The notes beneath the pieces were generated by a model. It did no database searches. It had not been told where the DNA came from and saw only the letters and a list, made by a program, of their open reading frames with translations. Position numbers and translations under genes: made by a program. Below are positions 9,846-11,857 of a stretch of 64,000 nucleotides of DNA, piece after piece. Source of the stretch: Cupriavidus basilensis. GTDB lineage: Bacteria > Pseudomonadota > Gammaproteobacteria > Burkholderiales > Burkholderiaceae. Numbering within the stretch: position 1 is the first letter of the stretch; every line of letters begins with the position of its first letter. The DNA lies in assembly GCF_008801925.2 (NCBI RefSeq), contig NZ_CP062803.1, forward strand, positions 4,216,001-4,280,000. Reading direction: 5' to 3'.

Positions 9846-10535
9846 ATGCCTGAGCATATCGACCCTGCCATGACCGCCGAAGCGATCGCCGAAGACATCG
9901 TCGCGGCGATCGTCTCGCACCGCCTGCCGCCCGGCACCAAGCTGCGCGAAGAGGCCCTGGCCAGCGTCTACCGCGTCAGCCGCACCAAGGTGCGCGCCGC
10001 GCTGCTGATGCTGTCCAAGGACAAGCTCATCCAGATCGTGCCGGACAAGGGCGCCTTCGTGGCCAAGCCCAGCGCCGAGGAGGCGCGCGAAGTGTTTGCC
10101 GTGCGCCGCATCCTGGAGGCGGCCCTGGCGCGTGAATTCGTGGCGCGCGCCACCGCCGCCGACTACAAGCGCATCGACCGGCACCTCGTCGCCGAGAAGA
10201 AAGCGCTGGGCGGCAGCGATGCGCATGTGCGCACCCGCCTGCTCAGCGATTTCCACATCATGCTGGCGGACGTGGTGGGCAATGGCGTGCTGACGGGCAT
10301 GCTGCAGGAGTTGTCGTTGCGCAGCGCGGTGATCACCATGCTCTACCAGTCCCGCCGCGACGCCGCCTGCTCCTCGGACGAGCATCGCGACTTCATCGAG
10401 GCCGCCCGCGCCGGCGACACCGAGCGCGCGGTGACCCTGATGGTGGAGCACCTGAACCACGTCGAGGCGGCGCTGCATTTCGAGCAGGTGCCCGCCGCCC
10501 GCAGCAAGGACCTGGTGACGGCGCTGCTGGCCTGA
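9846..10535 (+). CDS. GntR-family transcriptional regulator (FadR/FCD type)
   Basis: A 229-aa regulator. The N-terminal winged helix includes LPPGTKLREEALASVYRVSR (about 27-46). The all-helical FCD domain follows, with metal-ligand type residues in SDFHIMLAD and EHRDFIEAARAGD. FCD regulators usually bind small carboxylates. Its position downstream of dctA and the AT-rich palindrome in the dctA/amidohydrolase intergenic region suggest it controls these genes. Confidence 0.88.
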   Translation: MPEHIDPAMTAEAIAEDIVAAIVSHRLPPGTKLREEALASVYRVSRTKVRAALLMLSKDKLIQIVPDKGAFVAKPSAEEAREVFAVRRILEAALAREFVARATAADYKRIDRHLVAEKKALGGSDAHVRTRLLSDFHIMLADVVGNGVLTGMLQELSLRSAVITMLYQSRRDAACSSDEHRDFIEAARAGDTERAVTLMVEHLNHVEAALHFEQVPAARSKDLVTALLA

Positions 10536-10553
10536 ACCCGGCATGCTGCCCGC

Positions 10554-10567
10554 TTGACCCAGGTCAA
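10554..10567 (+). promoter_or_regulatory. FNR-type box TTGAC-N4-GTCAA
   Basis: TTGACCCAGGTCAA is a perfect 14-bp palindrome matching the TTGAY-N4-RTCAA pattern of FNR/CRP-family anaerobic regulators. A class-II activator site places the start of transcription 41.5 bases downstream, at about 10602. CATCAT at 10587-10592 or 10590-10595 is a 4/6 match to a -10 box in the right place. Confidence 0.6.
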
Positions 10568-10599
10568 GGCGCGCCACGCGCCTTTGCATCATCATCGAC

Positions 10600-10696
10600 C
10601 TCGTCATGAAGCTGCGGGGGCGCGCTTCATGACACACTGGCCCGTCCATCGCGGACGGCAGCCCGCACGCCGGCTTGGGTGCGGGCTTTTTCTTTT
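10600..10696 (+). ncRNA. Predicted FNR-controlled small RNA, about 95 nt, three hairpins
   Basis: The segment between the FNR-type box and a strong terminator has no convincing reading frame but folds well. Hairpin 1 is a perfect 9-bp stem (10604-10612 with 10624-10632) with a G-rich 11-base loop. Hairpin 2 is a 6-bp stem (10642-10647 with 10653-10658). Hairpin 3 is the terminator. The predicted start (about 10602) falls immediately before hairpin 1. Promoter, length and terminator together fit an independent sRNA gene. This is prediction only; the closest concept is FNR-dependent sRNAs such as FnrS or AniS, with no sequence similarity claimed. Confidence 0.5.
10660..10696 (+). terminator. 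Rho-independent terminator
   Basis: A perfect 9-bp stem AGCCCGCAC/GTGCGGGCT (10660-10668 with 10679-10687) closes a 10-base loop and runs into TTTTTCTTTT. It ends the predicted sRNA and would also stop read-through from the GntR gene. Confidence 0.85.
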
Positions 10697-10836
10697 GCGC
10701 GCCGCGCGCGCTGCCATTGCCAGATCCGCACGTGATCGAATCACGGCTTCGGAGTAGGATGTCGGAGGCCCAAGTCAGAGGCCGCTTAAAAGATCAGTGA
10801 AGATCAATGGCAAAAGATAAAAGCCAGGAGACAGAC

Positions 10837-10965
10837 ATGACCCGTTCCAGCCGTCCGGTGGCGATGTTCGAGGCATCGCCAGCACCAGCCCGCGCCATCC
10901 TGCTCCCCGATTTGCCGCCCCTGGCGGCCCCGCCGTCCGTGCGCCCGCGCCGCGTGCGCGGCTGA
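10837..10965 (+). CDS. Short Pro/Arg-rich ORF ahead of the acyl-CoA operon
   Basis: A 42-codon frame from ATG 10837 with AGGAG seven bases upstream. The predicted peptide is rich in Ala, Pro and Arg and matches nothing I recognise. It lies 70 bp before the SDR gene and downstream of the terminator, so it would be the first frame on the operon mRNA. It could be a leader peptide or a chance frame. The remaining bases of 10697-11035 show no other feature. Confidence 0.3.
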   Translation: MTRSSRPVAMFEASPAPARAILLPDLPPLAAPPSVRPRRVRG

Positions 10966-11035
10966 TCTTCCCGCCCGACCTTCCGTGCCGGGCCATCCGC
11001 TTTCATCATCCAACCCATCCTGGTGAGGGAAACCC

Positions 11036-11857
11036 ATGTCCAACGCGTTCAAAGATGACGTCCTGGCCGGCAAGGTCGTGTTTATCGCCGGCGCTTCGTC
11101 CGGCATCAACCTGGGCATCGCCCGGCATTTTGCCAAGGCGGGCGCCAGGCTGGCGCTGGTCAGCCGCGACCCCGAGCGCATCGCCGCGGCGGCGGCCAGC
11201 ATCAACGACGCCGGCGGCAGCGCCATCGGCATGGCGGCCGATGTGCGCGACTACGCCGCGGTGGAGGCGGCGCTCACGCGCACGCGCGACGAGCTTGGCC
11301 CGATCGATATCGTGATCTCGGGCGCGGCCGGCAATTTCGTGGCGCCGGCGCTGGGCATGTCCGCCAACGGCTTCAAGACCGTGGTGGATATCGACCTGAT
11401 CGGCACCTTCAACGTCTTTCGCGCCTGCTTTGCCTTTCTCAATGCGCCGGGCGCCTCGCTGATCGCCATCACCGCGCCGCAGGCGGTCAACGCCATGATG
11501 TTCCAGGCCCACGTCTGCGCCGCCAAGGCCGGCATCAACATGCTGGTGAAATGCCTGGCCATGGAATGGGGCCCGGCCGGCGTGCGCGTCAACGCCATCT
11601 CGCCCGGCCCCATCGCCGGCACCGAGGGCATGGCGCGGCTCGCGCCCACGCCGGAAATGGAGGCGCGCTTCAAGGCACGCCTGGCGCTGCGCGACTACGG
11701 CGACAAGGACGATATCGCCAATACGGCGCTGTTCCTGTCAACCGACAACGCCCGCTATATCACCGGCACCATCGTCGACTGCGATGGCGGCAGCAAGCTG
11801 GGCGACGCGTCGGCCGATGCACTGCATCCGCCCAAGGCACCGGGCAAGGCGGCCTGA
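11036..11857 (+). CDS. SDR oxidoreductase, 2,4-dienoyl-CoA reductase-like
   Basis: A 273-aa short-chain dehydrogenase. The nucleotide loop is IAGASSGINLG (about 17-27). The usual catalytic Tyr of YxxxK is missing: Lys164 is present but position 160 is Val, and His159 sits five before the Lys. That HxxxxK arrangement and the AAGNF, FKTVxDID and GTFN landmarks are those of the peroxisomal-type 2,4-dienoyl-CoA reductase (DECR2). It probably reduces unsaturated acyl-CoA with NADPH. GAGGG precedes ATG 11036. First sure gene of a four-gene acyl-CoA operon. Confidence 0.85.
   Translation: MSNAFKDDVLAGKVVFIAGASSGINLGIARHFAKAGARLALVSRDPERIAAAAASINDAGGSAIGMAADVRDYAAVEAALTRTRDELGPIDIVISGAAGNFVAPALGMSANGFKTVVDIDLIGTFNVFRACFAFLNAPGASLIAITAPQAVNAMMFQAHVCAAKAGINMLVKCLAMEWGPAGVRVNAISPGPIAGTEGMARLAPTPEMEARFKARLALRDYGDKDDIANTALFLSTDNARYITGTIVDCDGGSKLGDASADALHPPKAPGKAA

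Follow-up and report, generated by a model that had tools for sequence, protein, structure and literature searches.

Does the gap between a GntR-family regulator gene and an acyl-CoA operon in Cupriavidus basilensis hold a gene of its own, and if so, what would switch it on and what would its product do? An initial annotation had proposed a likely FNR-controlled small RNA (sRNA) gene at this place. We followed up this proposal in the window, meaning the whole 64-kb stretch of DNA that was analysed, G000:C1:4216001-4280000, in the genome that carries it and in genomes of the same genus, family and order. The features are as follows, all on the forward strand.

9846..10535, +, upstream neighbour, a GntR/FCD-family regulator gene; context, outside the sRNA
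10554..10567, +, FNR-type box TTGAC-CCAG-GTCAA (TTGACCCAGGTCAA), centred at -41.5 from the predicted start; A and B copies keep the fixed distance
10590..10595, +, -10-like element CATCAT; most B copies have a TANNNT-type element here, and C copies have TAGAAT
10602 (approximate), +, predicted transcription start, placed by class-II spacing
10603..10633, +, hairpin 1, with the apex GCG-GGGG-CGC at 10614-10623 and a U bulge at 10613
10634..10639, +, single-stranded linker, which many other copies have in a longer, CU-rich form
10640..10659, +, hairpin 2, kept as a hairpin while its sequence varies among copies
10660..10687 and 10687..10696, +, hairpin 3 and U tract, an intrinsic terminator by terminator and fold prediction
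11036..11857, +, downstream neighbour, an SDR oxidoreductase gene, the first large gene of the acyl-CoA (SDR/enoyl-CoA hydratase) operon; context

Promoter and fold of the candidate gene

Within its 64 kb, the window has no perfect TTGAYN4RTCAA site other than the box at 10554-10567. In a class-II FNR promoter the -10 starts 29.5 nt past the box centre, and CATCAT occupies this position, so that, counted from the predicted start of an intergenic RNA gene, the box is centred at about -41.5. The box alone is no proof, because with one mismatch allowed the window has five sites against 2.4 expected (five or more were reached in 9 of 100 shuffles); across the 8.94-Mb genome we counted 32 perfect FNR-type boxes against 16 for a reversed-pattern control. 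It is conservation, not the box alone, that decides the case for the putative sRNA gene. A simple sigma-70 scan of 10000-11500 found no promoter, a null result that fits an activator-dependent promoter yet is no evidence for one. Elsewhere in the genome, 8 of the 32 perfect boxes cluster at about 1.84-1.98 Mb (G000:C1), where they adjoin an Fnr-like gene, with universal-stress and alcohol-dehydrogenase-like genes recognized by eye.

Downstream of the promoter, the three hairpins at 10603-10687 are directly followed by UUUUUCUUUU, giving a predicted, terminator-ended RNA of about 93 nt. Folded as a 95-nt RNA, the region reaches a minimum free energy of -52.5 kcal/mol, whereas shuffled sequences average -36.8 (z = -4.69) and none of 200 folds as well. 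The initial annotation had described the position between gntR and the acyl-CoA operon, the perfect box, a -10 at the class-II position, three hairpins from the predicted first base and a last hairpin acting as terminator; each of these points was borne out, as was the observation at 10554-10696 as a whole. Its open GGGGG first loop has to be corrected, since the actual loop is GGGG closed by GCG/CGC. By eye, this G apex could possibly pair with CCC of the linker in a loop-linker pseudoknot.

Distribution and conservation within Cupriavidus

We searched for relatives of the locus by sequence, by covariance model and by hairpin pattern. BLAST of a 161-bp stretch found matches in 34 of 60 relatives, every one of the same genus, which amounts to 34 of the 36 same-genus genomes; the two misses were G001, which the covariance model matches (E 7.3e-22), and G012, a genome that is 54% complete. 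Two or three places were matched in 30 of these 34 genomes, at least one place (G020:C37) holding no true copy. The covariance model R1 was built from 49 rows selected among 64 copies, with near-identical ones removed. Over 398 family genomes, the matches listed included 59 of 59 same-genus genomes (best E 6.4e-25 to 3.4e-20), while the 154 genomes without a match, which the listing leaves out, may include members of the genus. The window's genome carries two strong R1 copies, at 87.5 and 85.6 bits, and a third, terminator-like match at 29.7 bits.

Outside the genus, R1 matched many genomes of the family with E values from 7.5e-6, the best, to 0.01; the count at the loose threshold was 224 of 398. 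The three best of these (L126-L128) were rejected as sequences without such an apex or hairpin. Rejected as well were the same-genus matches L122-L124 (34-35 bits), which consist of a tRNA-like stretch and a terminator, and R1 matches of this strength were therefore treated as noise. A hairpin-only pattern that left the promoter unspecified gave 66 matches over the 84,980 genomes of a species collection, 62 of them titled Cupriavidus, two 'Ralstonia sp. 25mfcol4.1' and two 'Burkholderiaceae bacterium 16'; the two non-Cupriavidus titles appear to correspond to G010 and G387, both placed in the window's genus. Among 399 order genomes, a near-identical hairpin pattern was found in three, all of the window's genus (1 of 158 genera), and was absent from the 396 outside it. 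The type-A sequence, that of the window, had no match in plasmid and phage collections. Within these searches (398 family genomes, 399 order genomes and the 84,980-genome scan), the candidate belongs to a multi-copy putative sRNA family found only in Cupriavidus; the suggestion to look for stems and box in other Burkholderiaceae was answered positively across Cupriavidus and negatively for Burkholderiaceae in general.

The box travels with the hairpins. Although the hairpin-only pattern leaves the promoter unspecified, 64 of its 66 matches carry a box, perfect in 62 and with at least 9 of the 10 specified bases in all 64, whose centre lies 41.5-43.5 nt ahead of hairpin 1, counted to its first base; the loci of the other two offer just 34 and 22 nt of upstream sequence. 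Among random 60-nt windows drawn from these loci, the best score reached 10 in 0.03% and at least 9 in 0.3%. We then turned to covariance-located copies: 98 fetched loci were searched and gave 98 matches, of which L122-L124 were dropped to leave 95 copies. The 77 A and B copies among them keep the box at the fixed distance, with 10/10 in 73 and 9/10 in four (L029, L042, L048 and L136). An earlier scoring had covered 64 of 67 loci, leaving out L050 (no copy), L062 and L067 (contig edge); L062 is the G029 copy with a shorter apex, and its box is present.

The apex is nearly invariant. Its presence in 104 of 105 pattern-collected copies is a circular figure because the collecting pattern fixes the apex and leaves the box free, hence the recount on covariance-located copies, where 93 of 95 share an identical GCG-GGGG-CGC. 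The exceptions are L106, in which the final C has become T, and the type-A copy L141 of G029, which is one G short. The latter copy (L141:896-999) is a natural variant with GGG for GGGG in which the box and the other hairpins are intact.

Mean pairwise identity reaches 0.73-0.83 in the box, falls to 0.42-0.48 in the spacer and 0.28-0.46 further upstream, and is 0.89-0.97 in hairpin 1, partly owing to collection by hairpin pattern. On the 3' side of the terminator it is 0.01-0.44 in A and B copies and 0.53-0.62 in C copies, where a gene begins. Among 48 distinct rows, 93.7% of cells were paired, two-sided-change cells numbered 61 versus 26.0 in shuffles, and the covariation score was 0.186 versus 0.099 shuffled (0 of 500 reach it), dropping to at most 0.056 with partners slid. 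Further pair types in these 48 rows showed no excess over shuffles (158 of 500 reach the same number). In hairpin 1, the two outermost pairs do not form in 19 and 15 rows, respectively; as read from the alignment, A copies appear to close this stem at a one-base offset. Hairpin 2 differs in sequence among subfamilies and folds in every copy viewed. Of the 103 stretches that a loose collector returned, 100 were predicted to fold into three hairpins, and at least 7 of the 103 are non-members. The initial annotation had named a lack of conserved stems and box in close relatives as grounds for refutation; the box was found in 64/66 matches and in 77/77 A and B copies, and the stems carry two-sided changes. 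Prediction and comparison together describe a stand-alone short RNA with its own terminator and a conserved structure.

The same copies bear on whether hairpin 1 encodes a peptide. The locus had been described as having no reading frame, which is not strictly accurate: a TTG-started open frame spans 10554-10757 across the sRNA region, and an 8-codon ATG..TGA frame lies inside hairpin 1. A tiny peptide gene reading M-x-x-RGR-x-S could be imagined from the latter, which recurs in 72 of 105 copies, but ATG and TGA are there because TCATGA is self-complementary, and the frame is either missing or does not have that stop in every one of the 18 C copies and in 15 A or B copies. Over the 95 covariance-located copies, the apex codons show one silent change (L106) and one frame-breaking G loss (L141), which fits constraint at the RNA level. 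With the frame not kept in 33 of 105 copies and none of the C copies ending there, we rejected the peptide-coding reading as barely credible.

Subfamilies and gene neighbourhoods

The 105 distinct pattern-collected copies fall into 34 of type A, 53 of type B and 18 of type C. The best -10 sits 29.5 nt past the box centre in 22/34 A, 49/53 B and 18/18 C copies, and in many A copies it is a poor one, reading CATCAT in 13/34 and CACACT in 8/34, which weighs against an FNR-activated sRNA. All 18 C copies (e.g., L108, L115, L119, L131 and L134) combine a TAGAAT -10 with TTAAY-N4-GTCAA in place of TTGAY, and this conserved TTAAY may point to a different CRP/FNR-family activator or to weaker binding.

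Each subfamily has its own surroundings. Type-A copies L001, L004, L005, L016 and L109 follow a dctA-like gene, with gntR seen in L001, L004 and L016, and the A copies viewed precede acyl-CoA genes or, in L005, a LysR-like gene. The B copies viewed lie before a luciferase-like monooxygenase gene (L031, L034) and/or a solute-binding protein gene, which by our reading is sulfate-binding. C copies L058, L108, L111 and L115 adjoin a gene for 5-carboxymethyl-2-hydroxymuconate isomerase (neighbour proteins of L034 and L108 were checked with Pfam). A type-B copy with its box is present on pHG1 of C. necator H16 (L242:6001-6146, corresponding to NC_005241 222721-222866), flanked by hmpA on one side and by phaP2 and then nap genes on the other, and has no annotated feature beneath it; a second plasmid copy lies on plasmid I of C. 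taiwanensis STM 8555 (L243).

These different neighbourhoods argue for action in trans rather than in cis. A cis element, acting as a leader or as the 3'-end terminator of gntR with no separate RNA, would account for the box starting only 18 nt past the gntR stop, and gntR read-through would stop at the same terminator. The unit nevertheless recurs with its own box beside unrelated genes, and at this locus it ends about 340 nt upstream of the next large gene, which makes the cis reading highly improbable.

Two side observations concern these surroundings. Some of the additional copies have transposase-like genes nearby (recognized by eye in L066, L106 and L107, annotated in L243) or sit on conjugative plasmids, which suggests that the putative sRNA gene travels with mobile DNA. 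Within the window, a frame of about 42 codons at 10838-10966 stands behind a GGAGACA Shine-Dalgarno sequence, with similar frames in L002 (42 codons) and L003 (41) and none found in a search of L004, L005 and L016; it is possibly a small gene or a leader upstream of the SDR gene.

Candidate activator, mode of action and known RNA families

The window's genome encodes an oxygen-sensing FNR: one protein scores 254 bits as Fnr (NCBIfam cut-off 228) and carries CxxCxxxxxC plus a central Cys, which we take to be the iron-sulfur cluster cysteines. Two further Fnr relatives score 229 and 215 bits, so Fnr is present but not the sole candidate activator. The same sRNA could thus be driven by another CRP/FNR-family member with the same box, for instance a nitric-oxide sensor of the Dnr/Nnr type within this family, and would then respond to NO or denitrification rather than to oxygen itself. 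The several Fnr-like regulators, the altered half-site conserved in C copies, and the position of the pHG1 copy next to nap genes, hmpA and a gene with a hemerythrin domain all favour this possibility, whereas the cluster cysteines of Fnr, and the chromosomal copies with neighbours read, which do not adjoin denitrification genes, weigh against it; we consider it possible, if unlikely. That this is an sRNA gene controlled by an FNR-family protein is very probable, and the initial proposal of an FNR-controlled sRNA gene gains support from the box at a fixed distance, the co-varying stems, the recurring fold and the Fnr encoded in the genome.

Under our preferred reading, [4Fe-4S] FNR would bind the box at -41.5 at low oxygen and activate a class-II promoter, from which an RNA of about 93 nt would run from around 10602 to the terminator. 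This RNA would probably act in trans with Hfq (three Hfq genes are present in the genome). It would base-pair with mRNAs unwanted at low oxygen and lower their translation or stability, its likely contact sites being the conserved G-rich apex of hairpin 1, the linker, which is CU-rich in many copies, or both. We regard this pairing mode as fairly likely. A search of 21 genomes for the complement of the B linker beside an ATG found no genus-wide conserved target gene: the widely repeated string was the antisense strand of the sRNA itself, and other strings occurred in 2/21 genomes (G003, G019) and 3/21 (G009, G011, G013).

The constancy of the apex also permits a different function, a decoy RNA whose GCG-GGGG-CGC hairpin titrates an RNA-binding protein, in an amount set by the FNR promoter. 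Such a decoy would explain an apex identical in 93 of 95 copies whereas hairpin 2 and the linker differ among subfamilies. We know of no protein that binds a GCG-GGGG-CGC site, and GGA, the CsrA-type motif, is found in the stem of B copies but is absent from A copies reading ATGAAG. We consider a protein-binding decoy improbable.

The candidate was also compared with known RNA families. Rfam 15 at gathering score gave no match in the 64-kb window, and nothing above cut-off in four other loci; at a relaxed threshold the best match, at 10656-10698, scored 23.9 bits against a cut-off of 50. A ctRNA_p42d match (E 0.0038) was rejected, as it covers the terminator alone and lies below its own cut-off. 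The putative sRNA family is absent from Rfam. FnrS of enteric bacteria is an FNR-activated sRNA and AniS of Neisseria an FNR-controlled one. Like the candidate, FnrS is a short intergenic RNA that is structured, ends in a terminator and has an FNR-type box ahead of it; unlike FnrS, the RNA described here was found only in Cupriavidus, usually has at least two copies per genome, bears a 5' hairpin with the GCG-GGGG-CGC apex and lacks an Rfam match in the window. AniS resembles the candidate in being under FNR control in a betaproteobacterium, and is set apart by the same missing Rfam match in the window.

A third relation is to RF02278, the double-hairpin 'toxic' RNAs of the order Burkholderiales such as NcS27, bdhR1 and S17, as described in PMC5688073, PMC4603805 and PMC11722255. 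Both groups are short multi-copy RNAs with CU-rich unpaired stretches, a hairpin and a terminator; the Cupriavidus sRNA differs in scoring below cut-off and in having an extra 5' G-apex hairpin and an FNR box. It might still be a Cupriavidus branch of these RNAs (NcS03/05/27/62, bdhR1, S17), given the similar layout of B copies, with a UGUCU-type stretch, a hairpin and a GCCCG terminator, and a score of 22.6 bits for L046. The window itself scores 13.4 bits and the B copy of its own genome 20.3 bits, however, against a cut-off of 50, and that genome holds separate RF02278 members at 69.9 and 51.9 bits, without the 5' hairpin of the sRNA, so that common membership appears quite improbable. RF02278 RNAs in this genome (L068-L072) comprise these two, which exceed the cut-off, plus three that score 48.5, 37.5 and 36.5 bits.

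In literature searches that covered mainly open-licence papers, we found no FNR-activated sRNA described for Cupriavidus and no report of this sRNA family. A tagRNA-seq study of C. metallidurans CH34, with and without copper, gives 35 putative sRNA starts (PMC7563307), and one of the present sRNAs may be among them.

Taken as a whole, we consider an FNR-activated, trans-acting regulatory sRNA with a stand-alone gene the probable identity of this locus. This reading draws on the box, the -10, the predicted fold, the terminator, genus-wide conservation, paralogues and the Fnr and Hfq genes; from these we infer transcription, FNR dependence, Hfq use, the pairing mode and targets. Tentatively, the copies might form a multi-copy set of sibling sRNAs of Cupriavidus' own, all under FNR control, sharing targets or partners through hairpin 1 and reaching private targets through the linker, as a post-transcriptional arm of the oxygen response of the genus with copies on chromosomes and on megaplasmids such as pHG1.

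To our knowledge, FNR-activated sRNAs are known in few groups. C. necator H16 serves as a laboratory model in which hydrogen oxidation, denitrification and PHB production are studied, and with the family genus-wide and present on H16 pHG1, whether the FNR response of Cupriavidus includes an RNA arm becomes directly testable. The G-rich apex, conserved and unusual, begs for a partner, and the sRNA probably helps Cupriavidus adjust to low oxygen.
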